Shown: positions 18,784 through 45,871 of the stretch, piece by piece
Numbering within the stretch: the first letter of the stretch is position 1
Layout: the number at the start of each line of letters is the position of its first letter
Assembly (NCBI RefSeq): GCF_900196725.1
Contig: NZ_FZMP01000249.1
Location: 1 to 53,077, forward strand
Source: Candidatus Methanoperedens nitratireducens
GTDB taxonomy: Archaea > Halobacteriota > Methanosarcinia > Methanosarcinales > Methanoperedenaceae
Reading direction: 5' to 3'
DNA: 53,077 nt
Notes under the pieces: model-generated
Told to the model about the DNA's origin: nothing
Seen by the model: the letters and a program-made list of their open reading frames with translations, nothing else
Databases searched by the model: none
Translations under genes and position numbers: made by a program

Positions 18784-20889
18784 TTATTTCTTAAATATCT
18801 CTTTCCTCTTGATGTACACCACTGCAACTATGGCGATCAGAACAATCACTAACATTACGATTGCCAGATTCACCGGGGGCGCCTCAGAAGTCGGCGTTTG
18901 GGTAATTGTAGCTGTACCACTAGTTGTTGAAGTCTCTTCAGGTTGCTGGGTTGCTATCGGCGTTAGTGCTGGCAATAATCCGCCTTTCAGCCCGGTTAAT
19001 ACGAAAGATGAGAATCCGGGGGTATCGGCCTCAACAAAGGTATATGTGCCATCATTCTTTATTTCGGCTATATCCAGCGTTTGCCACCTATTTTCACTCC
19101 ATCTGAGTATTTTCATATCACTGCCTGCAAGGCCATTTGATTCCAGCCACGTGTTCTCAATCTTGTATCTGAGCCGGGCATCTTTGATCTTCTTGGTACC
19201 CGCCCATATATTGAAATTCTTGTAAACATTACCTGGCGCTGATTCATTAACAAGCGTCGATGTTCCTTTAAGTTCTTCGACCCTTATAGAAATAGCGTTT
19301 TCATTTTCACCGCCAGTGACATCTATTTCATATAATCCAAGAGTGGAGTAGGTATATTTTACGGCTCTATCTGCCAGAAGATCCCGGTCTACAGTCTCGA
19401 CCCTGGCGATATTGTCAAAGGGCTCTGATGAGATTACACCGCCACCGCCAGTACTTCCACCACTACCGCCCGTAGAACCACTACTGCCCCCGGACCCGGA
19501 GGACGACTCTTCAGGTACCGTACCAATCAGGGCGAAGGTGCTGAAGTGGGATACATTTGCTATTATATAATTTTCTTCAGTGTTGCGTTCTACGATAGGA
19601 AGCGTTTCCCATGTATCGGTCGTTTCATTATATGTCCTGATCTGCAGGCTGCTTTCACTGACGCCAGAAGGCAGGGGCTCTGTATAGTTAAACCGTATCC
19701 GTATCGGGGGAACAAAGGTTGAGCCTGATGGTTCAAGTTCTACAAGTTCTCCAATCGATCTATCCCTTGAGGATAATTTTTCCCTGGCTTTTGATGGGAG
19801 ATCAGCCAGGGAAGTAACGGTTATATTCGATAGTGGAGTTCCGTCACTTTTCAGAGCCCGCGTTCCTGCCGGGATTGTAATAGTCATGTTTCCTGAGGGG
19901 GACTCTCTAGTAACTGTTGTATTGGTTATGCCAGATTCGTCGGTTGATAATGGAACATCTATACTGCATTCCCTGGTCCTGAAACTACCAGTCCCGACTA
20001 TATCCTGTTCGCTATAGGTCTTTCCTGTCAGGGTTGCCTGAGTATCGCCGCACTGGATACCTGTGTCATTTGTATAGAACTTTAACATTAACTTCTTATC
20101 GGCAGGGGTATTGTTCCAAAACGGTGCAGCACCATTTGGTCCAAATCTCACGGTTGAGATATTTAAATTGCCAACATCAAAACCTGCAGAATCATTGTTA
20201 AAGATAGTTACTGTGATTTCCCCATTGCTCTTTGGGTTAATTGTCTCCGGCTTAATTTCAATGCTAACAGGTATGCTCTCTGATGTACCCCCGCCTGAGG
20301 CGACAATATCGAAAGTTTCTGTTTCTGATGAGAATGCGGGCTTTTCTGTCCTGCCAGTGTTAAGGCTTGCGACCATGCTGTAACTGCCTACAGGCAGAGA
20401 AGTTGTATCGATGGTAACATCATAATCGTATTCTAATTTAGGCTTTACTCCATAACCATAACTATAGCCGTAACCGTAGCCATAACCGTAGCCGAAATCG
20501 GTTCCCTGATCAAGTACATCATCGAAACCGTAGCCATAGCCGTAGCCGTATTTGCCGGAAGGATTTTTATCATCGGGCGAAATGCTGATGTTCGAGTCGC
20601 CTCCGGGTATTGGCGTTCCATTAAGGTAGAAGGTACTTTTTTTATTGACACCAGATGGTCCTGTCAGGTCAAGGGATATGTTAGTTATAGGCACATACTG
20701 GTCAAGATCTTCGATATCTATTTTAATCTTGAAGCTTATGCTGCTTCCAGATGTGTACGAAGAATCAAGATCCGCTATTTTCACCGACACTGCCTGCGCA
20801 GGTCCTGAAATAATTAACATAATTACAATGAAAACCGTGATTAACGCGCTTGATAATATTGACTTTTTCTGTCCTTTCTTTACCACCAA
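18784..20889 (-). CDS. Gly-Tyr-rich surface protein with PGF-pre-PGF-type domain (copy 1)
   Basis: A 701-residue surface protein. It has an N-terminal signal or anchor (about residues 10-33, ending GPAQAVS), a beta-sandwich-like segment, a GY-repeat block at about residues 111-148, a segment with IEIKPETINPKSNGEITVTIFN, a Ser/Gly linker, then a domain resembling PGF-pre-PGF (PFDNIARVETVDR through TPGFSSFVLTG). A C-terminal membrane helix follows a Thr-rich stretch and ends IKRKEIFKK, so the protein is held outside the membrane. Start TTG 20889 or GTG 20886 behind AGGAGG. Paralogous to the next two genes. The role is probably cell envelope; details unknown. Confidence 0.8.
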   Translation of the reverse strand: MVVKKGQKKSILSSALITVFIVIMLIISGPAQAVSVKIADLDSSYTSGSSISFKIKIDIEDLDQYVPITNISLDLTGPSGVNKKSTFYLNGTPIPGGDSNISISPDDKNPSGKYGYGYGYGFDDVLDQGTDFGYGYGYGYGYSYGYGVKPKLEYDYDVTIDTTSLPVGSYSMVASLNTGRTEKPAFSSETETFDIVASGGGTSESIPVSIEIKPETINPKSNGEITVTIFNNDSAGFDVGNLNISTVRFGPNGAAPFWNNTPADKKLMLKFYTNDTGIQCGDTQATLTGKTYSEQDIVGTGSFRTRECSIDVPLSTDESGITNTTVTRESPSGNMTITIPAGTRALKSDGTPLSNITVTSLADLPSKAREKLSSRDRSIGELVELEPSGSTFVPPIRIRFNYTEPLPSGVSESSLQIRTYNETTDTWETLPIVERNTEENYIIANVSHFSTFALIGTVPEESSSGSGGSSGSTGGSGGSTGGGGVISSEPFDNIARVETVDRDLLADRAVKYTYSTLGLYEIDVTGGENENAISIRVEELKGTSTLVNESAPGNVYKNFNIWAGTKKIKDARLRYKIENTWLESNGLAGSDMKILRWSENRWQTLDIAEIKNDGTYTFVEADTPGFSSFVLTGLKGGLLPALTPIATQQPEETSTTSGTATITQTPTSEAPPVNLAIVMLVIVLIAIVAVVYIKRKEIFKK

Positions 20890-21339: not shown

Positions 21340-22314
21340 TCACCTCAACCAGATTTGCCACAAGAACTGCCTCAAGAGTTTCTTCCAACCATGACCGCCA
21401 CCTCCGCATCCTACCGTGCTAATGTTATCCGACCCTGTTATGTCCTGTCCGCTATATGTTTTTCCAGTCAGGGTAGCCTGGGTATCTTCGCACTGGATAC
21501 CTGTATCCTCTGTATCGAACTTGAGAATCAGCCTGTTTGCGGCTATGTTGCTGTTAATGACTGATGCATTGCCGGGTCCAAACTTCACAGTTGAAATGTC
21601 TATATCGGCGACATCAAAGCCAGCAGGCGTATTGTTAAGGATGAATACTGTAATTACCCCTTTGCTTTCCGGGTTGATAGTCTTCGGGCGAATATCGACG
21701 GTTACTTGAACAATAGCTGCAGAAATAGTGAATGCTGCTTGTGCTGAAGTAAATGCGGGTTTAACTTCCTTCCCTGTGTTGAGATTTGCGACCGCATTAT
21801 AATTGCCTTCCGGGAGAGAAGTAGTGTCTATGGTGACATTATATGTATAAGTGATAGTACCCCCTTTGACTCCGTATCCGTAACCGTACCCGTAACCGTA
21901 CCCATAACCGTACCCGTAGCCATAGCCGAAGTTATAGCCAGTCCCACTTTCACTATCTACGCCATATCCGTAGCCATATCCAAATTGACCGGGTTGAGGC
22001 GTATTAACAGGTGTTATGGTAATAGCGGTATCGCCGTCCGGGATTGGCGTTCCATCTAAAGTAAATGTCCTGTTGAGGTTTACAGGCCCTGTTACATCAA
22101 GAGAAATATTGGCTGCAGGCACATATTTGTCCGGATCGGTTATATTTACTGATACTGTGAATTCGATGCTATCACCTTTCGTATATGTTCCGCCCAGACC
22201 GGAAATGATTACCGACACTGCCTGAGCAGGTCCTGAAATCAACAGGATAATAACAATAAAAAGGGTTATCAACGTGCTTACCAAAAAAGATTTTTGCTTT
22301 CTTATCTTATTCAT
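21340..22314 (-). CDS. Gly-Tyr-rich surface protein, truncated (copy 2)
   Basis: A 324-residue paralogue of the flanking genes. It has the signal segment (STLITLFIVIILLISGPAQAVSV), a beta-rich segment, a long GY block at about residues 110-148, then VDIRPKTINPESKGVITVFILN and ISTVKFGPGNA. It ends abruptly after TVGCGGGGHG with an unrelated basic tail (WKKLLRQFLWQIWLR). The PGF-pre-PGF-type domain and membrane anchor are lost. The product may be secreted freely or be non-functional. It has a good GGAGG and a TATA box (22370-22361) with a phased AAAC array upstream. Confidence 0.7.
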   Translation of the reverse strand: MNKIRKQKSFLVSTLITLFIVIILLISGPAQAVSVIISGLGGTYTKGDSIEFTVSVNITDPDKYVPAANISLDVTGPVNLNRTFTLDGTPIPDGDTAITITPVNTPQPGQFGYGYGYGVDSESGTGYNFGYGYGYGYGYGYGYGYGYGVKGGTITYTYNVTIDTTSLPEGNYNAVANLNTGKEVKPAFTSAQAAFTISAAIVQVTVDIRPKTINPESKGVITVFILNNTPAGFDVADIDISTVKFGPGNASVINSNIAANRLILKFDTEDTGIQCEDTQATLTGKTYSGQDITGSDNISTVGCGGGGHGWKKLLRQFLWQIWLR

Positions 22315-22360: not shown

Positions 22361-22422
22361 TTTATTTAAAGCCAGTGATAGTTTTTACAATTTAATTTGT
22401 TTTGGTGGTTTTAGACAATTTT
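22361..22422 (-). promoter_or_regulatory. TATA box with phased AAAC array (surface protein copy 2)
   Basis: On the minus strand TTTAAATAAA (22370-22361) is the TATA box. Upstream of it, A-rich motifs begin at 22422 (AAAA), 22411 (AAAC), 22402 (AAAC), 22393 (AAAT) and 22384 (AAAC), a 9-bp step after the first. The array ends 10 bases before the TATA box. It overlaps the end of the copy 3 gene. See the arrays at 24522, 33655 and 45001. Confidence 0.55.
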
Positions 22423-24456
22423 GATGAAAATCTCTTTTCTCTTGATATACACGTACGCAACGGCAGATATTATACCAACAAGGCCAATTATAACCGCCAG
22501 TTTTGTTGGCGGCGCTTTTACAGACGGAGACCCTGTAGCTTCCGGGGCCTCTGTAACCGCCGGCGCACTCTCCGGCAAGGCTATTGTTTCTAGCTGCTTC
22601 GCCTCGCCGGCTTGCGACCCTGCTATTGCAAAGGTTGAGAAACCAGGCGTATACGCTTCAAGATATGTGTAAGATCCATCTTTTGCTGTCACTGTGGTTT
22701 CAAGTTGAGACCATTTACTGCCTTCCCACCTGTACATCTTTACTTTGTCGCCTGAAATCCCTCCGGATGCAATCCATGAGTTCTCGACCTTGAATTTTAT
22801 CCGGGCTTCCCTGACCTTTTTTGTGTTAATCAAGATATTCATGTATTTTGCGCCATCAATAGGTACAGTCACCAGCCTGGATCTATCTTTAAGTACCTCG
22901 ACTCTTACAGAGATGCCGTTCTCATTCTCTTTTCCCGTGATAACTATCTCCGATATCCATTGCCCCGCTTTTAAGAAAGTGAACGCTACAGGCTTGCCAG
23001 ACCGGAGATAACCCTCTCTCGTTTCATACAAAGCTATGTTATCAAAGGGCTCTGCGCTACCGATGACCCCGCCGCCACCGCCGCCACCGGAGCCGCCATC
23101 ACGATGATCACCTCCGCATCCTGCGGTCTTGATGTTATCGGACCCTATAATGTCCTGCCCGCTATATGTTTTTCCGGTCAGGTTCGCCTGAGTGTCGCCG
23201 CATTGAATGCCTGTATCTTCCCTGTTGAAATGAAGAACCAGTTTTTTGTGATCGCGTACTTTCAGCCTGCCATCTTCCAGCTCTGTTATGACGAGTTTTT
23301 CATTGTCGCCTCCCGGGATTTTGTCCCAGGTGAACAAATCCCTGTCATCCGGATGATGCGGCGGTACGGTCTTGTATTTGATCACCTCTGCACCGCCAGG
23401 TCCGAACCTCACGGTTGATATATTTATACTGTCAACATCAAAGCCGGGAGGAGTGTTGTTAATGATCGTTACTTTAATTTCCCCTTTGCTCTTCGGGTCG
23501 ATGCGATCCGGGCTAATTCTAATGCTGACAGGGACAGGTTGTGGCAGAATTGCAGGCGCCGTTCTTGCTGTGCGGGTCACCCATGTCCCGTTGGTATTGC
23601 CGCTCGTATCCCCAGTCCTTGTGGCGATAGTATGTTCCGTATCCGGAGCAAAACCTGTCGCGTTATAGAACCGTATGCCCTTTGGAACATTGTCTTTAAA
23701 AGTGCCGTCTATCCATACGCTTACACTGGCAAAGTCCGCATCTGTCGGGTCAATCCATGTCCAGTTGATATAAGTCGGGGCATAGGTTATATTATTCAGG
23801 CCGGTCACGCCGGCAGGAGACGTATTATCAATCAACCTGAAACTCCCGGTTTCCTGGAACAGAACACCCCGACCGGTGTTGACCTTTACCACTATATCAT
23901 ATGCCTGCGCGTTTGCACCTGTCGTATCGACCGTTATCTTATAGTTGAGCCGGGTGTAGGTGCCGGAATTACCGTATCCATAACCATAGCCGTAACCATA
24001 ACCATAGCCGTAACCATAACCATAAAACCGGTACCCATACCCGTATCCGTAGTAGGGGAGGATTTCAGTGTTATTAGTATAACCGTAGCCGTAGCCGTAA
24101 CCATTTGTCCAGCCATGCCTGTCTGCCAGAGAAATATTATAGTTATCCTTTATAACATTTGTACCCACAGAATTGAAATCACTTACATTGAAAAGGAGTT
24201 CTCCGCCGGGAGATCCGGGTATATCGGGAAGACCTTCTACGGATATGTTAGTGATAGGAATCCTCTCATTTGCGCCGATCGTTATATTAACGTAAAAAAA
24301 AGCTGTCTCCCCTGCCGCGCTGCCATTTATATTATTTGTGTCTATCGACACCCGGACTGCCTGAGCAGGTCCTGAGATGACCAGCATCGCGACAACAAAT
24401 AGAGTGATCAACGTGCTTACCGTAAAAGATTTTTTCTTTTTCCTCAGACTGATCAT
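22411..24456 (-). CDS. Gly-Tyr-rich surface protein with PGF-pre-PGF-type domain (copy 3)
   Basis: A 681-residue paralogue of copies 1 and 2. Signal segment (VSTLITLFVVAMLVISGPAQAV), a beta-rich part, a GY block at about residues 121-164 where GYGYGY is mixed with Phe and Asn, a fibronectin-like segment (NITYAPTYINWTWIDPTDADFASVSVWIDG), the VSIRISPDRIDPKSKGEIKVTI segment, a poly-Gly linker, the PGF-pre-PGF-type domain (EPFDNIALYETREGY to TPGFSTFAIAG) and a C-terminal membrane helix ending YIKRKEIFIKIV. Probably an anchored envelope protein. The promoter carries the phased AAAC array, and the gene overlaps the copy 2 array. Confidence 0.8.
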   Translation of the reverse strand: MISLRKKKKSFTVSTLITLFVVAMLVISGPAQAVRVSIDTNNINGSAAGETAFFYVNITIGANERIPITNISVEGLPDIPGSPGGELLFNVSDFNSVGTNVIKDNYNISLADRHGWTNGYGYGYGYTNNTEILPYYGYGYGYRFYGYGYGYGYGYGYGYGYGNSGTYTRLNYKITVDTTGANAQAYDIVVKVNTGRGVLFQETGSFRLIDNTSPAGVTGLNNITYAPTYINWTWIDPTDADFASVSVWIDGTFKDNVPKGIRFYNATGFAPDTEHTIATRTGDTSGNTNGTWVTRTARTAPAILPQPVPVSIRISPDRIDPKSKGEIKVTIINNTPPGFDVDSINISTVRFGPGGAEVIKYKTVPPHHPDDRDLFTWDKIPGGDNEKLVITELEDGRLKVRDHKKLVLHFNREDTGIQCGDTQANLTGKTYSGQDIIGSDNIKTAGCGGDHRDGGSGGGGGGGVIGSAEPFDNIALYETREGYLRSGKPVAFTFLKAGQWISEIVITGKENENGISVRVEVLKDRSRLVTVPIDGAKYMNILINTKKVREARIKFKVENSWIASGGISGDKVKMYRWEGSKWSQLETTVTAKDGSYTYLEAYTPGFSTFAIAGSQAGEAKQLETIALPESAPAVTEAPEATGSPSVKAPPTKLAVIIGLVGIISAVAYVYIKRKEIFIKIV

Positions 24457-24502: not shown

Positions 24503-24582
24503 TTATTTAAAACCATCGACAATTTACAATAGTTTCAATAGTTTTGACGGTTTCGGACAGTTTCGATGGTTTCAAATGGTTT
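24503..24582 (-). promoter_or_regulatory. TATA box with phased AAAC array (surface protein copy 3)
   Basis: On the minus strand AAAC begins at 24582, 24572, 24563, 24553, 24544 and 24535, followed by AAAT at 24525: seven units at 9-10 bp. Flanks are similar too (GAAACCATC, GAAACTGTC, GAAACCGTC, GAAACTATT). The TATA box TTTAAATA (24511-24503) begins ten bases after the last unit. This is the most regular of the four arrays with respect to unit sequence. Confidence 0.65.
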
Positions 24583-27154: not shown

Positions 27155-28635
27155 TGAGTAAAAAATCCGAATATGTTTCCCTGAGTATAATTTTAGCTCT
27201 TGCCTTTGTATTAATAACTCACTCACAATTCAAAATAGACACTCTTTATTCCTATGATGCATATTTTCAAAATGGAATTTCTCGTATTATTTTAGATAGT
27301 GGAGATGTTGTCTATGATGTCTTAGAGCCCCCATATGCTGCATCATCCACTGTAGTGACAATAGGTTATGTTCCAATGCCCCCTATTTCTCAAACAATTC
27401 TAAGTCTTGTAACATCTTCTAGTCTATTTTTTGCTGCAAAAATATATATTATAACGTTTTTTTTCATGCTCATATTAACAATCTATATACTTACAAAAAA
27501 AATTACAAAATCACCAGTAGCTTCTATTTTTTCTTCATTTGTTTTCATATTTATACCGATTGTTTTTTATAGATTAAATTATATTGTAGGCGAATCTTCT
27601 GCATTACTTTTATGGTTATTAATATTCTTCATACTCATAAACCAAAAAGCTACAATGCTTAATATTTCCTTGGTTCCTTTGTTTGTGGCAGGGTTAACAT
27701 TTCATCCAAGAAGTCTAATTTTTTATTTACCACTAATGATTATTCTATATCTATTGAAGAATGGATTCTCAAAAAACAATATAAATATAAGAAATCTAGT
27801 AATTGTTTTAAGTATTACTATTATAGCTATTCCATTCTTGAAATTTTTTATTTTGAATCTATTGGCATATTCTAAGCAAGGAGCAACCTATATTCTATTT
27901 CCCCCAATCACCGTACAACCAATCACTTTTGATTTTATATCCTCTCAATTTGGGATTTTTGTTTTACTAATTTCATTTTTTGGATTAATTTATCTATTCA
28001 AAAATATCAAGAAGTTTGAATATCAATTTCTAAGCGTATGGTTACTTCTTGGATGGATGCTTATTTTTGTGGGGTTTTATCTTTCATTTCCATCGAATAG
28101 ACTAACCTTACACCTAGGTGTAATATTAGCATTATTATGTGGCTGTGTGCTACAACTAGTTAAAAACAACTCCCAACGGATAATGATACCATTTATCCTC
28201 TTTTTGCTAATTGTACCTGTAGTTCCTATTTTCAATAAATCATCTTGGCATAATCCCTTTTTAGGGTGGGGGAATGAAGAAAAAAAAGCTATGATGTTTT
28301 TATCAAGCAACATAGTTGAAAAAGAACATGAGGAGGATTACTTAATTTTCACATCAGCATATAGTTTGCCATTTGGATATGGTTTAAAGCATATAGAGTT
28401 TAATGAAACATTACTTGCTGAGATATTAAGTAGTAGCACAGAGCAAGATTTATTATTAAAATTTAATCAAAAATACCCTAGTAAAAAGGTAGTTTATATC
28501 ATCAAAGAAAATTACGCAAATAAGATTATCAGCAATCGATTTCCAATATTGAAAAACTTGGATGACGGTAAAATAATTTATAGTAGTAGTAAAGTCCAGA
28601 TATACCGTTATCCTATTAAGGGGATTGAGACATGA
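27154..28635 (+). CDS. Multi-pass membrane protein, probable GT-C type glycosyltransferase
   Basis: A 493-residue protein with about 11 membrane helices. An acidic motif near the N-terminus after the first helix (IDTLYSYDAYFQNGI) fits the catalytic loop of GT-C enzymes that use polyprenyl-linked sugars (GT39/PMT-like or STT3-like). A soluble C-terminal part follows (EEDYLIFTSAYSLPFGYG...). It could alternatively be a polymerase of the Wzy type. It lies between two GT4 genes with overlaps at both ends. Confidence 0.6.
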   Translation: MSKKSEYVSLSIILALAFVLITHSQFKIDTLYSYDAYFQNGISRIILDSGDVVYDVLEPPYAASSTVVTIGYVPMPPISQTILSLVTSSSLFFAAKIYIITFFFMLILTIYILTKKITKSPVASIFSSFVFIFIPIVFYRLNYIVGESSALLLWLLIFFILINQKATMLNISLVPLFVAGLTFHPRSLIFYLPLMIILYLLKNGFSKNNINIRNLVIVLSITIIAIPFLKFFILNLLAYSKQGATYILFPPITVQPITFDFISSQFGIFVLLISFFGLIYLFKNIKKFEYQFLSVWLLLGWMLIFVGFYLSFPSNRLTLHLGVILALLCGCVLQLVKNNSQRIMIPFILFLLIVPVVPIFNKSSWHNPFLGWGNEEKKAMMFLSSNIVEKEHEEDYLIFTSAYSLPFGYGLKHIEFNETLLAEILSSSTEQDLLLKFNQKYPSKKVVYIIKENYANKIISNRFPILKNLDDGKIIYSSSKVQIYRYPIKGIET

Positions 28636-29773
28636 AAATAGGGATAATTACAGGTCTTTTATACCCCTGTACAAAAAGCGGTCCTGCCATAGTTACATAT
28701 AATCTGGCAAATTATTTAGCAAAGAAAAATATTGAAGTTACAATATTTGGTGCAATAAAACAAAAACAATCCACCGAAATAGAAGAATATTATCCAAAGG
28801 TGGATTTGAGAACACATGTTGAAAAAAGTACGTTTTCTGTGCTTTCTTATCAATTCAAATATATAAAGCAAATTAATAGTAAAGATTTTGATATTCTTCA
28901 TCTTGAAAATCTACCTGGAGCTAGGGGTTTCATAATAGTTCCACTCCTACATGCTTTAAATAATAATGTTAAGATAATCCAAAAAATACATGGATGGCCT
29001 CCAACCGAATTAAATTTTAGATTTGATAGCGTTTTTAAAAGAATTATGTACCGGCTCCATTGGAGCGTTGCAAAAGAGATTATACATAATTACAGCGATA
29101 AAATTATTGTGAATAGTAATTTTATGAAAGAGACTGTAAGTAAAGATTTTCACAAGCATATCGATGTAATCCCAAATGGCATAGATTTAAATGTCTGGAA
29201 ACCGGCAAAAAAAATAAATATAAAAGGGAGAAAGAATGTTGTTTTTGGGGGAGATTCTCTATAGAAAAGGGTGTAGATCTTATTATAGAATCTGCAAAAA
29301 ATATTATAAAAATGGACACGGATGTACACTTTTATTTAATTGGTGATGGCCCAATTTTAGAATCCCTTCAGCAACAATCTAAGAAGGCTAAAATAGAAAG
29401 AAATATACACTTTATGGGTTTCTTACCCCTTCAAGAACTTATAAAGTATGCATCTACGGCTGATATTGCTATATTCCCATCTCGATATGAGCCTTTTGGG
29501 ATGATGATCTTAGAAGCGATGGCTCTAAAAAAACCAATTATAGCCACAAATGTAGGTGGTATAAAAGAGATTATACAAAATTATAATAACGGAATTTTAG
29601 TAAATCCTGACAGCAATGAGATATCCGAAGCGTTGGTAAAACTTCTAAAGGATGAAGAGTTACAGGAGACATTAAGTGTAAATGCATATGAAACATCAAA
29701 AAGATATGATTGGGATAAGGTTTGTGAAAGTTATATAAACTGCTATCAGACGATTGGTGGAGACTTAAAATGA
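28632..29773 (+). CDS. Family 4 glycosyltransferase, reading frame broken
   Basis: The N-terminal half (28632-29264) has GIITGLLYPCTKSGPAIVTYNLANYLAKK and ends in VIPNGIDLNVWKP followed by NVVFGGDSL-stop. The C-terminal half continues in another frame: FSIEKGVDLIIESAKN, FYLIGDGPI, NIHFMGFLP, PSRYEPFGMMILEAMALKKPIIATNVGG. One extra G in the G5 run at about 29247-29251 gives VVFGGRFSIEKG, a typical GT4 sequence, and a 380-residue enzyme. A missing base in the sequence is likely. It overlaps neighbours by four bases on each side. Confidence 0.8.
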
Positions 29774-33610: not shown

Positions 33611-33654
33611 TATAATTTCGGTATACTTCTGTTAAAGTGTTTTAAGATGATTAT

Positions 33655-33718
33655 AAACCGAAATAAACTGTAATAAACCGTAAAAATTGATAAAAACGAT
33701 AGATAAGTTATTATTTTA
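33655..33718 (+). promoter_or_regulatory. Phased AAAC array with TATA-like box (surface protein operon)
   Basis: AAAC occurs at 33655, 33665, 33675 and 33694, with AAAT at 33684 filling the gap: a step of 9-10 bp. Ten bases after the last unit a TATA-like TTATTATTTTA begins (33708-33718). The start codon is at 33752. The design matches the arrays before surface protein copies 2 and 3. Confidence 0.6.
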
Positions 33719-33751
33719 TCATAATCATCATAATCAACATAATAAGAACTG

Positions 33752-35209
33752 ATGGCTATGCGAATTATTGTATACACGATCCCATTTACAGCAGTACTTT
33801 ATATTTTATATCTCAGTCTGTATGCTCCTGTGTTGCCTGATAACCCCCCCATTCCAACAGGATCAGATTCAACAGTCTACACTATAGATGTAGGAGCGCA
33901 GGATAGTAAGGGAGATGCTGTACTTCAGGGACCTTTTGACAGGACTTCATATCCGATAAGTAAAGGTAATGTCACTTACAGATTCATTGAAAAAGATCTT
34001 GTTTACTTTAATAGTCCGGTTAAACAAAATTTCAGCAGGGTAAAAGTTGAAATGAAATTTATAGACACAATCCCGCAGGGCTATGAATTTAAAGTGGGGA
34101 TGAAAAATAAAAAGGAGTGGAGCTACGTATGGAATACTCTTTATAACCCATTTTATGCATCTCTTGGAACGTTCAATCTGACAGGGGAAGATAGCCGGAT
34201 CCGTGTTTATTCGCTGAATGCCAATATTACAACCCCTATCTCATCCTTTCTTAGTTCTCCTTCCGAGGGTTCTACAATAGCTACAGATGCCCCTGTCGAA
34301 ATATATAATGACCCCGCTGCCACGTACAAGGAGTCCGGTTCAAGCATCGGTGAACTCAGGGGAGTCCATACCTTCTATATTTACACTAAAGGGAACCTGA
34401 GCTTATCCGTGAAAAAGCAGGACCTTAACTGGTACAACGGCCCGGATGTTCTTGATATAAACCTTTACTCCCCTGCAAACGAACTGATAAAAAACATAAC
34501 GATATCAGATGACGGTAACCTGGGAAAAGATAATATTAAAGGACATCTGCAAAATGGCACACTTGGGTCAGTCGTTAAGGAGGGTATTTATAAAGTCACT
34601 ATGAGAGGTGGAAGCGATATCCTTATTCGGAAAATTGAGCTTAACAATGGCAACATTGTAGTGCAGAACCCTTTCCTCGCAGGTGTACAATATACCTACT
34701 CTACAAGGTTTAACCTGTACACAAGGGCTGCGACCGGAGATAGGTTAGGGTTTATGACTTATCACAATGAAGGTCTTCAAACTATACGCATAACCAATGG
34801 TAACTATACTAGATCACTTAATATTTCTACAGTTAATAGCTGGCATTACATAGACCTTCCTTCAAGCAATGAGCTTTATAAGATAGAAATTCCAAAAGGC
34901 AATATCTTAATAGATTCAGATAGCTATTTCTCGTTCTCAAAAGATTCATATTTTACCCCTCAGGCAATTAAAATACTTCCCCTGCAGGATAGCATAGACT
35001 GGCTTAAAATAAATAAAGTGGATTATATTATTATCCCCAACAGCCAGGAGTCTAAAGATGGCAACTGGACTATTGCCAGTGTCGAATACGATCTTTCAGA
35101 CGCCTATATAAATAATAATACACTAAATTTTGCTATAAGCGCGCCGCACCTCAATAAATACAATTATTCAGTACCTGTGGACTGGATCAGGATTTACCTG
35201 GAGGAATAG
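33752..35209 (+). CDS. Secreted or anchored surface protein, related to the next gene
   Basis: A 485-residue extracellular protein with one N-terminal membrane helix (IIVYTIPFTAVLYILYLSLYAP). The body is beta-rich and has the phrases SFLSSPSEGSTIATDAPVEIYNDP, IGELRGVHTFYIYTKGNLSLSVKKQDLNWYNGPDVLDINLYSP and NIVVQNPFLAGVQY. All of these recur in the next gene, so the two share a duplicated domain of about 250 residues. No known family is recognised. It is two bases from the next gene, the same operon. It could be a glycan-bound envelope protein or a substrate of the nearby glycosyltransferases. Confidence 0.65.
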   Translation: MAMRIIVYTIPFTAVLYILYLSLYAPVLPDNPPIPTGSDSTVYTIDVGAQDSKGDAVLQGPFDRTSYPISKGNVTYRFIEKDLVYFNSPVKQNFSRVKVEMKFIDTIPQGYEFKVGMKNKKEWSYVWNTLYNPFYASLGTFNLTGEDSRIRVYSLNANITTPISSFLSSPSEGSTIATDAPVEIYNDPAATYKESGSSIGELRGVHTFYIYTKGNLSLSVKKQDLNWYNGPDVLDINLYSPANELIKNITISDDGNLGKDNIKGHLQNGTLGSVVKEGIYKVTMRGGSDILIRKIELNNGNIVVQNPFLAGVQYTYSTRFNLYTRAATGDRLGFMTYHNEGLQTIRITNGNYTRSLNISTVNSWHYIDLPSSNELYKIEIPKGNILIDSDSYFSFSKDSYFTPQAIKILPLQDSIDWLKINKVDYIIIPNSQESKDGNWTIASVEYDLSDAYINNNTLNFAISAPHLNKYNYSVPVDWIRIYLEE

Positions 35210-35210
35210 C

Positions 35211-38200
35211 ATGAATTTCAGGATTATAATGCTTTTCTGTTTGCTGCTGCTCGTTGGTGCATCTGCCGCAGGGGAGGAGATCAGGTCGCCGGTTTGTCCC
35301 GTGAGCTTCGGGAGCACGCCGTGCATCATAAACATAACAAATTCTCCAAGCCTTCTGAGCGACTATGAGGAGATTTACATCGATACCTCGAATGGCTATT
35401 ATTTGACCGATAGCAATTTTTATTATGCAGGATTGAACTATAAAAACAGCCAGATTGATTTATTTTCCATACGGCATAACGTAAGTAGCATAAATACCGG
35501 GAAGGCTGTATTAACCGGCGAGTTATATAAAAATGATAACAGTTTGCAGGTAATCATTGGAAAAGAGCTTATTTTAAAGAACGGGTACACCCTGGAACTT
35601 GTTGACGCAGGTGAAGACGGCGCCGTTTTTTCTTTGAAGAGAAATAATGTAATACTCGAAACCGGCACTGTGAACAGGAATAAAATCTTCTCCTATAATA
35701 TTACTATAGATGGAAAAGAGATCGAGATTTTTCGTACAAAACTCACAGGTATCTTCGGGAATAGTGCGGTTATCACAGGTACCTATCTGAGAGATACCAG
35801 AATAATAAGGAATGGAGAGTCTTTTGGGGATTACGAAATAAATTTAAAGGATATAGACGGAGACAGGGATGTTGATATAGTGTATTCACTTAAAAACAAA
35901 ACTTTCCTGCCCGATGAAGGAGCAACGCCTTTACCGGGTGGCTTCTTCACTTTACGAACATATCCTGCTTATGTCCCATTCTATGAATCTCTTGATAGGT
36001 TCAATCTCATAGGGAAAGATAGCAATTTCAGGATATATTCTATAAACGATAACCTTAAAATGTCGGTTCCCTCTTTTTTGAGCTCCCCTCCTGATGGCTC
36101 AGTAATAGCCGCCGGTTTACCTGTCGGGATAAACACAAAGCCCACAGTCACTTATAAGGATTCAAATTCAATCATAAGTGAACTCAGGGGAAATCATATC
36201 TTCTATATTTATACTGCCGGAGACCTGAGCTTATCCGTGACAAAACAGGATCTTAACTGGTACAACGGCTCGGATGCCTTTGAAGTAAAGCTTTATTCTT
36301 CTGCAAACAAATTGATAAAAAATATAACCATTCCGGATGACGGAAATGCAGGAAACAATCACATCTCAGGGTATTTGCAAAATGGAATTCTCACGGCTGA
36401 AGTTGAGGAGGGCATTTATAAAGTAACTATGATCGGGGGAAACGGCGATCTTATTATCAGGAGCGTTGAGCTTAACAAAGGCAATATTGTAGTTCAGAAC
36501 CCCTTCCTTGCAGGCATACTTTACCCCGATCCTGTAAAGTTTAATCTGTACACACGGGCAGGCGATAGATTGAAACTTGATACATACCATAACACGTCGG
36601 TTCTTCCCCAAACTGTGAACATAAGCAGCGGCAGCTATATACAATCTCTGAGCATAACTCCGGATAAAGTGCCGTACTATATTGATCTTCCTCCCGGTAA
36701 CGAACTGTATAAAATAGAAATCCCTAAGGGAGATTTTATAATAACCGCAAACAGCTACTTCTCCTTCTCAAGCGACTCGTACTTCAGCACTTCATCGGCT
36801 AAAGTCCTCCAGCTGCAGAACAGCATGGACTGGCTGAATAAAAATAAGGTTGATTATGTCATCATCCCTTCCTCGAACCCCTTTACCGGCCTTTATTTTT
36901 ATAAAACTAAAACCGATAAGGAATACTATGTCCGCTCCCCGAAAAGCCCGTGGGCGGACTACACCATAGATACGTGGTCGGCACCCAATATCTTTCATTT
37001 TAACCCTGCCGAGAACAACACATGGGAATATCTGGTCATGAATAACAGTGGTGTGACTGATCTTAACAGGGACCGCCTGAAGTACGTTGCTGTCCGGACG
37101 CAGGGGAATATAGGCTATCGCGGGGAGTTCTATAAAGTCATGGATGAAACTCTCCCTGAGATGGTGTTATCAAGAAAAGTATCGGATATCGATAACAAAA
37201 CCCTGCTGCTTAATAGGGAATGGCAGGTGGGCGGAATATATACGCTGGCTCTGGAAGATGTTGACAGCGAGGGAAAATTCGCAGTACTGGAACTCTCCCG
37301 GTTGAACATGCCTGTTAGCAGGCAGATAATTTCCAGGGGCAGTATAATGTTTTATAACATCTCCTTAAAAGGAAAGGACGTTACGATCTTCCAGGCTAAA
37401 CTCACCGATGTTTTCCACGGAGCAAATACAGGCATAGTCAAGCTTTCGGATATAGAGCTTTACGATGAAGATATGACCGTAATAAAAAGCGGGGCATCTG
37501 TAGGGAATGAAATATTGACTTTATCAGATGTTAATAATGACGGGCTTCTCGATATCGTGGTTACGCGGAACAGCGTTTTTAATATCGAGAAAAGCACGAG
37601 GAAAACGTTATTCAATTCGTATCTTGACCTTGTGGCGGACGGTGGCGGGACTTTCTATCTTGAGCGTAAGGTAATTTCACCATCGGCAGTAACGAACAGC
37701 TCGAATATAGCCAGGGAAACAAGCTATACGCTTGCCCCGTATTTCCCGGGGAACAATATGACGCTTACCTTCCCTGATTTTGATATAACCGCCATAGCCC
37801 TTGATGTCTCAGGGCTCATCGACCAGGTTAAAGCCAGTCTGAAGGAACTCAAGAACATGCCCGATGATATCATCGTCGTCCCGGATGGTGTGGTATACAA
37901 ATATTTCTCGATATCGATAGATAAAGAGAACATAAAGAACGCAACAGTTTATTTCAGGGTGAACCGCCAGTGGTTAACCTATAACAATATCAGTGACACC
38001 TCTGTTGCATTGTCAGAGTTCCATGATGGTTCCTGGGAAGCCATTCCGACATACGTGACCGGAGGCGACGGGAAGTTCGCGTATTATTCGGCAAAGGTCA
38101 ATGACATTTCTGCGCTGTTCTCCATTTCAGGAGGCATATCATCAGACCGGGTTTTAGCATCGCAGGCGGATATTGCATCGCAGGCGATCCCGGATGCAGG

Positions 38201-38756
38201 AAAGGCAGGACTGTTAGAAGAATATAAACAATCGGGTATCGCAGCAATGTCTCTGGCACAGGCGGGAATCGGTCAAAATCCCAGGTCTGATCTCAATTTG
38301 ATAATACTGGCTTTTTCATCCATCTCGGTCGTTATCTCAGTATTTCTCGTGGCACGGAGAGCCGGTGTGTTGAACAGCAAAACAGTTTCATTTTTATCAA
38401 GACTTTGTTCTGAAATATTCAATTCACTGCTTCTTACGTTCCTGCTATTGTTACTTATAGATAATATATGGGACAACAGCGTAACAAAAAATCTGAACCT
38501 GAATCACCTGATGATCATAGTGTTCATTTTTGGGATCATATCATTATATGGCAATAAAACCGAAACCGACAAAATTACAGTAGCCACTAAAAAAGAATAT
38601 ATAACCACAGCCGGTATAGGGATACTGGGAATGATAATCATCTGGTCTAAAATAAATTATATGGGCTTCATCTCCTATCCGATATCTATTATAAGCGGGA
38701 TATTGATCGTGTTATTATCTTTCCTGATGCTTGAGGATAACGATGTACTTAATTGA
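35211..38756 (+). CDS. Large surface protein with C-terminal membrane helices
   Basis: An 1181-residue protein with a signal peptide (IIMLFCLLLLVGASAAGEE). The N-terminal part is beta-rich; residues from about 270 to 560 match the preceding gene; then come two copies of a short motif (GKEIEIFRTKLTGIFG and GKDVTIFQAKLTDVFH), each with a calcium-like Asp-rich loop (DIDGDRDVDIVY, DVNNDGLLDIVV). A PGF-pre-PGF-like region (IDQVKASLKELKNMP to NDISALFSISGG) precedes about five membrane helices. Possibly an S-layer-related or cell surface receptor-like protein. No exact family is recognised. It overlaps the next gene region by a few bases. Confidence 0.65.
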   Translation: MNFRIIMLFCLLLLVGASAAGEEIRSPVCPVSFGSTPCIINITNSPSLLSDYEEIYIDTSNGYYLTDSNFYYAGLNYKNSQIDLFSIRHNVSSINTGKAVLTGELYKNDNSLQVIIGKELILKNGYTLELVDAGEDGAVFSLKRNNVILETGTVNRNKIFSYNITIDGKEIEIFRTKLTGIFGNSAVITGTYLRDTRIIRNGESFGDYEINLKDIDGDRDVDIVYSLKNKTFLPDEGATPLPGGFFTLRTYPAYVPFYESLDRFNLIGKDSNFRIYSINDNLKMSVPSFLSSPPDGSVIAAGLPVGINTKPTVTYKDSNSIISELRGNHIFYIYTAGDLSLSVTKQDLNWYNGSDAFEVKLYSSANKLIKNITIPDDGNAGNNHISGYLQNGILTAEVEEGIYKVTMIGGNGDLIIRSVELNKGNIVVQNPFLAGILYPDPVKFNLYTRAGDRLKLDTYHNTSVLPQTVNISSGSYIQSLSITPDKVPYYIDLPPGNELYKIEIPKGDFIITANSYFSFSSDSYFSTSSAKVLQLQNSMDWLNKNKVDYVIIPSSNPFTGLYFYKTKTDKEYYVRSPKSPWADYTIDTWSAPNIFHFNPAENNTWEYLVMNNSGVTDLNRDRLKYVAVRTQGNIGYRGEFYKVMDETLPEMVLSRKVSDIDNKTLLLNREWQVGGIYTLALEDVDSEGKFAVLELSRLNMPVSRQIISRGSIMFYNISLKGKDVTIFQAKLTDVFHGANTGIVKLSDIELYDEDMTVIKSGASVGNEILTLSDVNNDGLLDIVVTRNSVFNIEKSTRKTLFNSYLDLVADGGGTFYLERKVISPSAVTNSSNIARETSYTLAPYFPGNNMTLTFPDFDITAIALDVSGLIDQVKASLKELKNMPDDIIVVPDGVVYKYFSISIDKENIKNATVYFRVNRQWLTYNNISDTSVALSEFHDGSWEAIPTYVTGGDGKFAYYSAKVNDISALFSISGGISSDRVLASQADIASQAIPDAGKAGLLEEYKQSGIAAMSLAQAGIGQNPRSDLNLIILAFSSISVVISVFLVARRAGVLNSKTVSFLSRLCSEIFNSLLLTFLLLLLIDNIWDNSVTKNLNLNHLMIIVFIFGIISLYGNKTETDKITVATKKEYITTAGIGILGMIIIWSKINYMGFISYPISIISGILIVLLSFLMLEDNDVLN

Positions 38757-44780: not shown

Positions 44781-45000
44781 TGTTTATCAGGTTAAGACTT
44801 TGTGGCATCTATTAGCAGATCGGAAAGAGTATTAACCAGTCCTCCATGGATTGTTATACGAGATATTAAATAAGCTTAATATGGTAAGAAGGTAATAAAA
44901 AGATAGGCATGTCAGGACAGATAGACTAAAAGATTCTAATTTTAATAGCATTATAATGATTTATAACTGATAAATATAAATAGCTTATTATACAGATAAT
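44781..45000. other. AT-rich divergent intergenic region
   Basis: Separates the MgtC-like gene (minus) from the KaiC-like gene (plus). It contains TATA-like words (for example ATAAATATAAATAG near 44970-44983) but no ORF. The ordered AAAC array begins directly at 45001. Confidence 0.35.
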
Positions 45001-45090
45001 AAACGATTATAAACAATCAAAAACGATTATAAACTACATAACATCCCTGAAACTCAAAGAAACTTAAAAGGATTGTCGGCATATTTATAT
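45001..45090 (+). promoter_or_regulatory. Phased AAAC array with TATA box (KaiC-like gene)
   Basis: AAAC occurs at 45001, 45011, 45021, 45031, 45050 and 45060, with AAC at 45040: exactly or nearly 10 bp apart for seven turns. The TATA box ATTTATAT follows at about 45083-45090, one turn farther away than in the other three arrays. The ATG is at 45179, so the transcript has a leader of about 65 bases. This is the longest array. Confidence 0.65.
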
Positions 45091-45178
45091 TAACAATTGA
45101 TAATAATACTTCTATGATGATGCGAATGATGATACTAATCGAATTTGTTGAATCAAAGAAATAACAAGGGGAAATAGC

Positions 45179-45871
45179 ATGATAGAAACTGGGATTTCGG
45201 AACTGGACAAACAACTGGGCGGTGGCATAAAGAAAGGGTCAAATATCATGATGATCGGTCCTCCGATGAGCAGAAAGGAAGTTATTCTGAACCACATAAT
45301 GTACCACGGGGCAGCAAAAAATAAGAACGCGGTAATAACGGTGAACACATACGAAACAGGAGCCGGTATCCTGGAATGGTTCAGGGAGAATAAGTTGATC
45401 CTGCCACTCTCAAGGATAGGGATAGTTGACTGCATTACAAGGATGATCGGCGTTGAAGCTGATGACGATGATAACATTAAAATAGCGAACCATCCGGTCG
45501 ATTTAACAGGAATAGGCATCAGGATCAGCCAGTTCCTTGAGGAATATTCCATGAGAAAGAATGTCCGAAAGATTCAGCTTTGTGTTAATTCACTTTCTGC
45601 ATTATTATTATACTCGAACATTAGAATAGTTTACAAGTTCCTGCATGTTTATACAAGGCGTATCAAGGCAGCAGGGGGTCTTGGAATATATGTACTGGAG
45701 AGCGGAATACATGACATGCAGTCGATAGCGACACTAAACCATCTGTTTGATGGTGTAATGGAGATCAAATCCGAGAACGGTAAGAACTTCATACGGGTGA
45801 TCGGCCTGTCACCAAAACCCACACTCTGGCTTGAATATGAGATCGATGGCGCTAAGGTGATGATAACGTGA
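45179..45871 (+). CDS. KaiC/RadA-like protein with degenerate Walker A
   Basis: A 230-residue member of the RecA-superfamily group that includes archaeal KaiC-like proteins. TGISELDKQLGGGIKKGSNIMMIGPP is family-typical, but the P-loop reads GPPMSRKE instead of GPPGSGKT, missing the second glycine of the loop and the Ser/Thr that binds magnesium. The Walker B-like strand IQLCVNSLSALLLY lacks a clear acidic end. It probably no longer hydrolyses ATP and may act as a regulatory partner. Its promoter carries the longest AAAC array. The gene is alone before gpmI. Confidence 0.75.
   Translation: MIETGISELDKQLGGGIKKGSNIMMIGPPMSRKEVILNHIMYHGAAKNKNAVITVNTYETGAGILEWFRENKLILPLSRIGIVDCITRMIGVEADDDDNIKIANHPVDLTGIGIRISQFLEEYSMRKNVRKIQLCVNSLSALLLYSNIRIVYKFLHVYTRRIKAAGGLGIYVLESGIHDMQSIATLNHLFDGVMEIKSENGKNFIRVIGLSPKPTLWLEYEIDGAKVMIT

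Follow-up and report, generated by a model that had tools for sequence, protein, structure and literature searches.

To our knowledge, few archaeal transcription activators have been characterised. The nearest precedent for repeated activator sites at an archaeal promoter appears to be that of EarA at euryarchaeal archaellum (fla/arl) promoters, where several short sites lie immediately upstream of the BRE/TATA elements. In the available accounts these comprise four 6-bp sites in Methanococcus maripaludis and between one and three neighbouring motifs, placed at a constant distance, in the Thermococcales, and EarA itself is presented as a winged-helix activator thought to recruit TFB (PMC5512572, PMC10665913, PMC13286277). 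SurR (PF0095) of the Thermococcales, an ArsR-type winged-helix protein, is described as recognizing the motif GTTn3AAC, as activating transcription when bound upstream of TATA and as activating its own gene (PMC12162507, PMC6316755), and the activators Ptr2 and TFB-RF1 are described as binding upstream of the BRE and recruiting TBP or TFB (PMC5512572, PMC5937170). Sequence signals are likewise described for DNA architecture: phased A-tracts are well known to accompany DNA curvature (PMC3940949), phased AA/TT/AT/TA and CC/GG/CG/GC dinucleotides are described as positioning archaeal nucleosomes (PMC3691661), and MC1 is reported to prefer AAAAACACAC(A/C)CCC(C/A) (PMC3928310).

Here we describe promoters in which AAAC motifs recur about once per helical turn immediately upstream of the TATA box. 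They were met in a 53,077-nucleotide stretch of DNA from Candidatus Methanoperedens nitratireducens (the window), which is contig C2 of a 3.52 Mb genome in 250 contigs. A first-pass annotation had reported four such arrays, and direct reading together with a script found all four at the positions it gave. Their features are as follows:

45001..45063, plus strand: AAAC array in the promoter of a KaiC-like gene, six exact units with one turn skipped
45070..45083, plus strand: turn adjoining TATA, bearing the conserved TCG (GGATTGTCGGCATA), at the BRE position
45084..45091, plus strand: TATA box TTTATATT
45179..45871, plus strand: first gene downstream of the array, for a KaiC-like protein (DUF7504/KaiC); homologues of the same clade retain the array
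33655..33697, plus strand: AAAC array in the promoter of a surface-protein operon, also matched by a profile that was not trained on it
33708..33716, plus strand: weak TATA-like stretch, starting at about 33708
33752..35209, plus strand: 485-aa ORF without a family match
35211..38756, plus strand: next ORF of the surface operon, with S-layer and PGF-pre-PGF domains in a family search
24532..24582, minus strand: AAAC array of six exact units (24582 to 24532), followed one turn on by an in-phase AAAT
24504..24511, minus strand: TATA box TTTAAATA of the 24582 array, starting at 24511
22411..24456, minus strand: Gly-Tyr-rich surface protein with a PGF-pre-PGF domain
22381..22422, minus strand: degenerate AAAC array, three exact units (22411, 22402, 22384) with in-phase AAAT between
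22363..22370, minus strand: TATA box TTTAAATA of the 22422 array, starting at 22370
21340..22314, minus strand: 324-aa ORF behind the fourth array, with no Pfam match at 1e-3 and no NCBIfam match at 0.1

In the KaiC-like promoter the exact units start at 45001, 45011, 45021 and 45031 and, after an empty turn, at 45050 and 45060; in the surface-operon promoter they start at 33655, 33665, 33675 and 33694, and a degenerate unit lies near 33685. The 5' end of the 22422 array overlaps the final bases of the upstream ORF (22411-24456). The earlier description of the spacing, with three arrays ending ten bases before TATA and the fourth one turn farther away, is accurate if the AAAT of the 24582 array is counted; for exact AAAC alone the gaps are about 10, 10, 20 and 20. 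The surface-protein gene at 20889 indeed lacks an array. ATN triplet repeats (ATCATAATC, ATGATGATG) are abundant behind the TATA boxes of several arrays, as at 33718-33743 and 45112-45135 in the window, and such a stretch is present in the KaiC-like homologues too.

Although the placement of these arrays recalls that of the EarA sites, there are several differences from EarA as far as it is described: 1) the repeated unit is AAAC(C/T), and not a TACA-type site resembling the EarA motif A(C/G)(C/G)TACA(T/C); 2) the EarA sites are fewer; 3) the EarA sites serve the archaellum operon, whereas the arrays precede, among the downstream ORFs read by eye, a set of surface genes; 4) they include a conserved TCG turn, of which there is no mention in the available EarA descriptions. 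SurR shares AAC/GTT half-sites with the arrays, but its sites are inverted, whereas the repeats here are direct (GTTT 2 vs AAAC 72 in 23 promoters). The described TFB-RF1 site is a palindrome, unlike the array, and Ptr2 is described as binding multiple sequences. MC1 is described at a single 15-bp site, again unlike the array, and available descriptions of nucleosome and MC1 sites do not tie them to TATA. The first-pass annotation knew of no archaeal promoter element of this form. This has to be qualified, as the repeated EarA sites beside the BRE are of the same general kind (PMC5512572, PMC10665913), but it holds for motif and unit number, and for target among the downstream ORFs read, to the extent that these are described. 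In the literature on promoter elements, mostly that outside subscription, we found no title describing such an element, and in that on Methanoperedens we found no described regulon. What is new is probably an array of likely activator sites that is long, phased and specific to certain clades, and whose promoter-proximal turn is conserved.

We examined the register of the units in two sets of promoters. In the first, of 26 promoters with TATA placed by eye, many chosen for AAAC spacing and none for TATA phase, 121 of 125 AAAC starts, counted from TATA, group into clusters at one-turn intervals, with centres near -14, -23, -33, -43, -53, -62, -72 and -82. The second set is the fairer test, as its 23 promoters were chosen by protein homology only and TATA was placed by rule: AAAC occurs 72 times upstream of TATA compared to 31.8±4.3 in shuffles, with a period of 9.6 bp and a phase statistic that none of 300 shuffles matched. 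With the rule-set TATA, and with the Gly-Tyr homologue L116 left out, phasing is clear both in the KaiC-like clade (R 0.91) and in the Gly-Tyr set (R 0.93); it is weak in the ten winged-helix loci alone (reached by 10 of 300 shuffles), because the TATA rule picked another box in several of them. When L116 and the winged-helix loci L225 and L239 are left out, the remaining 20 promoters have successive AAAC steps of 9 bp (26) or 10 bp (23) in 49 of 61 cases, and nine of the other 12 steps measure 19-20, 29 or 39-40 bp. In these promoters the base after AAAC is C or T (AACT 40 vs 16 and AACC 32 vs 14 in shuffles), with AACA and AACG below the shuffle means; the unit is thus AAAC(C/T).

The composition of the 23 promoters also bears on two readings that dispense with a dedicated protein. 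The first holds that phased A-tracts bend the DNA and thereby aid TBP/TFB or RNA polymerase, and a period of 9.6-9.8 bp with short A runs does resemble curved DNA. However, AAAC is enriched more than two-fold on a fixed strand, while AAAT is depleted (33 vs 52.6 in shuffles) and AAAG is flat (12 vs 12.5), so that, judged from base content rather than from computed curvature, the arrays do not behave as though any phased A-tract would serve; the conserved TCG turn likewise speaks against plain curvature. Since AAAT and AAAG would serve equally and yet are not enriched, curvature alone is not favoured, and we regard it as rather unlikely. The proposal of the first-pass annotation that bent DNA assists initiation thus loses ground as a sole cause, whereas a contribution of bending is possible. 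The second reading, in which the arrays position a particle of archaeal histone immediately 5' of the promoter, is compatible with the phased A/T-rich steps and with the presence of a histone gene in the window's genome. The described nucleosome signals are nevertheless strand-neutral (PMC3691661), while the arrays are not: GTTT is nearly absent (2 vs 3.9 in shuffles), and the AA/TT/TA phasing expected of a nucleosome element is not strand-neutral here. Further, 94 of 99 genomes have histone matches, among them genomes of families that lack strong array matches, and we found none in the draft genome G015, which holds the strongest array match. This makes histone positioning very improbable. 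The C of the unit, its fixed strand and the TCG turn are predicted by neither simple curvature nor histone placement.

A conserved block resembling AAACTRTCGNTATG forms the last turn and abuts TATA; it reads AAAC-T-R-T-C-G-N-T-A-T-R immediately 5' of the box and covers the BRE position. In 27 anchored promoters T at -8 reaches 96%, C at -7 74% and G at -6 74%, compared to 33%, 19% and 43%, respectively, in 21 other promoters. Such strong conservation where a BRE is expected could mean that a dedicated TFB reads the TCG turn as an alternative BRE while the array acts as a secondary enhancer; but the AAAC at -14 shows that the turn is also an array unit, and we hold this to be quite unlikely. 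A weak-BRE signature of the kind expected for TFB recruitment was not detected, the A content at -6 to -3 being equal to that of the 21 other promoters. At several array promoters (L249, L255, L258, L267, L319, L333) leaders of about 200-400 nt precede the first long ORF; Rfam gave no match to long leaders in nine loci, and the L267 leader has visible GAGGAGCC...GGCTCCTC complementarity.

Chains of at least three exact AAAC at 9-11 bp occur three times in the 8,898 intergenic bases of the window (two with at least four units; the 22422 array, which scores only with degenerate units, is not among them), compared to a mean of 0.026 in 1000 dinucleotide shuffles of the same DNA, none of which reached three. 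A functionless origin by tandem-repeat slippage or chance finds some encouragement in Tandem Repeats Finder, which detects short stretches of repeats with a period of 9 or 10 in all but one of the four window arrays (matches of 74% over 44987-45034 and of 85% over 33653-33683, for example), and in the relatives, where seven of 34 four-unit matches (in G021, G002, G012 and G003) are exact or near-exact tandem repeats. Outside AAAC, however, the units differ from turn to turn and lack the near-identity of a simple tandem repeat, the arrays follow gene clades, TATA phase and placement, and the shuffles fall short; we give this explanation almost no credence. In a 354 kb sample of the window's genome (40 contigs, for the most part each seventh one, represented by their first 20 kb, with C46, C146, C196 and C197 chosen for holding paralogues) there is no general AAAC phasing, so the array is a feature of selected promoters.

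To search more widely we derived a profile 76 positions long, from sequence alone, using 25 of the promoters; the window arrays at 33655 and 22422 were withheld. Both held-out arrays were recovered (33647-33709, E 8.5e-5; 22362-22422, E 7.8e-4), and the training-set members in the KaiC-like promoter and at 24582 matched at E 1.3e-9 (45026-45093) and 1.6e-9, respectively. Over 312 kb of the sample (22 of its 40 loci) the profile gave two matches at E<0.004, one coding and one (C23:10080) promoter-like. The window's genome contains 15 sites at E<=1e-3, six from training and nine others including both held-out window arrays, and its top match is a new site, C143:32455 (E 2.1e-10); matches to coding sequence begin at E of about 0.02 (C177, C35). 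Only two of 60 hit centres lie inside an open frame of at least 100 codons, compared to 1220 of 1500 random positions, a difference that is partly compositional, since AT-rich DNA has more stops. The objection that such arrays might be just as frequent at random places therefore receives no support in the part of this comparison that was run.

The arrays track gene clades and not genomes. Among 30 KaiC-like loci, the best matches of 30 genomes of the genus fetched from a longer list, the profile at E<=0.05 finds an array in 8/8 of one clade and in 0/22 others. In a tree of 28 of these loci, the truncated L100 and L112 being left out but kept in the profile count, a branch with 100/99 support separates the eight array loci from the rest. 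Three of the eight (L088, L090, L092) were outside training; L090 is weak (E 0.0028), and the matches of L088 and L090 end before TATA. A gene for a 120-aa winged-helix protein presents a similar picture among 30 loci fetched from a longer list: seven of ten orthologues (at least 75% identity) have profile matches, five of these having been trained on, two more show units by eye, and one with an internal stop has none, while the lone match among 20 more distant relatives is partial (E 0.02) and lies about 280 nt upstream of L235. The Gly-Tyr surface protein retains its array in G005, G007, G011 and G014, and the G005 homologue (L342) of the 485-aa surface-operon protein is preceded by a like array. 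The Gly-Tyr homologue L116 of G043 has none. Absence from orthologous promoters in close relatives, which would speak against the interpretation, is seen at L116, but most orthologous promoters among those examined retain the array, and this comparison, as far as it was run, does not refute it.

In the 99 genomes of the order, the Methanosarcinales, there are 54 matches at E<=1e-5, 19 of them training sequences and 35 not, under filters that were stricter and lose weak matches. They occur in 17 of 30 genomes of the window's family (f1), 7 of 17 of a second (f2) and 0 of 52 of the others (f3-f5), and are absent at this threshold from 13 of the 30 f1 and 10 of the 17 f2 genomes; related genomes are non-independent samples in all such counts. 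At E<=0.003, 44 of 237 genomes of the class have a match (29 f1, 9 f2 and 6 f5), none of them outside the order. E ranges from 1.4e-4 to 2.3e-3 among the seven f5 matches, of which five end short of the TATA end of the model; strong matches are thus confined to two families. Exact patterns agree with this distribution less sharply. The four-unit pattern occurs 34 times in 40 genomes vs 6 for its reversed control, and for three exact units plus TATA the excess over the reversed control is only modest in the genus (20 vs 7), with 9 vs 6 in f2, 2 vs 0 in f3 and 45 vs 48 in f5. The earlier suggestion of a shared design is accordingly strongly supported and reaches far beyond the window. Viral spread was considered and rejected: two pattern scans gave five and zero contigs, the five representing two distinct contexts, and the longest ORFs behind the match on these five are of 42, 54 and 112 aa.

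The genes behind the arrays are biased in kind. Taking as target the longest ORF within 480 nt of each of 60 fetched hits, with hits whose loci had already been read by eye kept outside these statistics, a strongly hydrophobic N-terminal segment is found in 27 of 38 downstream ORFs of at least 150 aa (orthologues being counted repeatedly) as against 44 of 225 background genes (Fisher p 8e-10); some hits stand before a long leader or a tiny ORF, and their target is uncertain. For CxxCH proteins the set shows no significant enrichment (5/38 vs 12/225, p 0.08), though a protein with 12 CxxCH motifs (L360, labelled by eye) is among the targets. In family searches the window genes gave PGF-pre-PGF and S-layer domains; two kinds of KaiC domain and an HTH_45 protein (L314) were also identified, and reading of the translations suggested secreted S-layer-like and CAP-like, membrane glycosyltransferase-like and decarboxylase-like proteins. 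No archaellum operon was recognised by eye among the downstream ORFs read. Elsewhere in the window, two adjacent ORFs (28632-29264 and 29312-29773) carry Glyco_transf_4 and Glycos_transf_1 parts, respectively, as if one glycosyltransferase gene had been split. A small protein family with the signature S.ERV.LLK.G...K.IE.LY (L060, L193, L289, L343, L344, L357, L361) has several copies behind an array. An f1 genome can have as many as 11 matches to it; within f2 it is confined to genus g2 (99 genomes searched), and two members gave no Pfam match. As a reader of the array it was discarded, being absent from the f2 genomes of genus g9, some of which bear arrays.

We propose that the arrays constitute one promoter class, bound head-to-tail by a putative sequence-specific activator beside TFB/TBP, and consider this probable. 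The direct repeats are fixed in strand, base and TATA register, so a protein reading each turn alike is the simplest explanation. The arrays, of about three to seven AAAC(C/T) units spaced by 9 or 10 bp in most cases, close with the TCG-bearing turn adjoining TATA. In the proposed arrangement, a small sequence-specific DNA-binding protein, perhaps of the winged-helix type if we may guess, would most likely occupy each turn in the same orientation and stack head-to-tail on one face of the helix, and the promoter-proximal end of the stack would touch TFB/TBP and bring about recruitment. Bacteria offer a parallel in a BldC-type MerR-like protein, which forms cooperative head-to-tail oligomers on a variable number of direct repeats of another motif. 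Unit number and match quality might set promoter strength. The regulon would consist mainly of cell-surface and secreted proteins, together with glycosyltransferase-like membrane proteins, KaiC-like ATPases and some small regulators. Binding, its attribution to a single protein, activation and the mode of contact with TFB/TBP are all inferred from the DNA. The idea in the first-pass annotation of one regulator acting cooperatively along one helix face is hence the best fit to base-specific, orientation-locked units in TATA register, with the protein itself only putative. With so readable a promoter signature, surface genes that are probably co-regulated can be listed in many Methanoperedens genomes and the regulator can be sought by pull-down; the signature also offers a simple system for studying the helically phased contact of archaeal activators with TFB and TBP.

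A special case of the proposed class is that the SurR/ArsR-like winged-helix protein G000:C122:55634-55993 reads the array and regulates itself. Its own promoter carries the array in most of the orthologues described above, and none lies close upstream of 20 paralogues. By sequence its nearest solved relative is SurR PF0095 (E 4.8e-5 with the single sequence, 1e-7 with a profile), which is described as self-activating; it is modelled as an ArsR-type winged helix (mean pLDDT 81), and at the aligned place it keeps one cysteine of the CxxC redox pair of SurR. On the other hand, the best fold matches of the model are Phr (2p4w) and PH1932 rather than SurR, the protein reaches 26 bits with the NCBIfam SurR model, whose cut-off is 250, many ArsR proteins show winged-helix similarity of this order, SurR sites are inverted half-sites while the arrays are direct repeats, and the gene may be merely a target. 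Further, a family match at E<=1e-15 is absent from 12 of 31 genomes of the genus, and genomes without the family still have the array (G010, 9e-9; G017, 1e-8; G023, 1e-9; G043, 8e-6). We therefore reject this clade as a universal reader, several of the 12 genomes having strong arrays; the candidate is a lead only, and an unlikely one. A bolder version, which we put forward tentatively as possible rather than probable, is a lineage-specific master switch in which a winged-helix protein would polymerise along up to seven AAAC turns and take the BRE position via TCG. If this were true, one regulator would jointly set S-layer-like, cytochrome-like and matrix genes, and the number of turns would grade the output.

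In an alignment (A3) of 17 winged-helix relatives, from which L233 and two others were left out, two cysteines, residues 28 and 76 of the L219 protein, are invariant. Residue 28 aligns with the second cysteine of the CMEC stretch in PF0095 (SurR).
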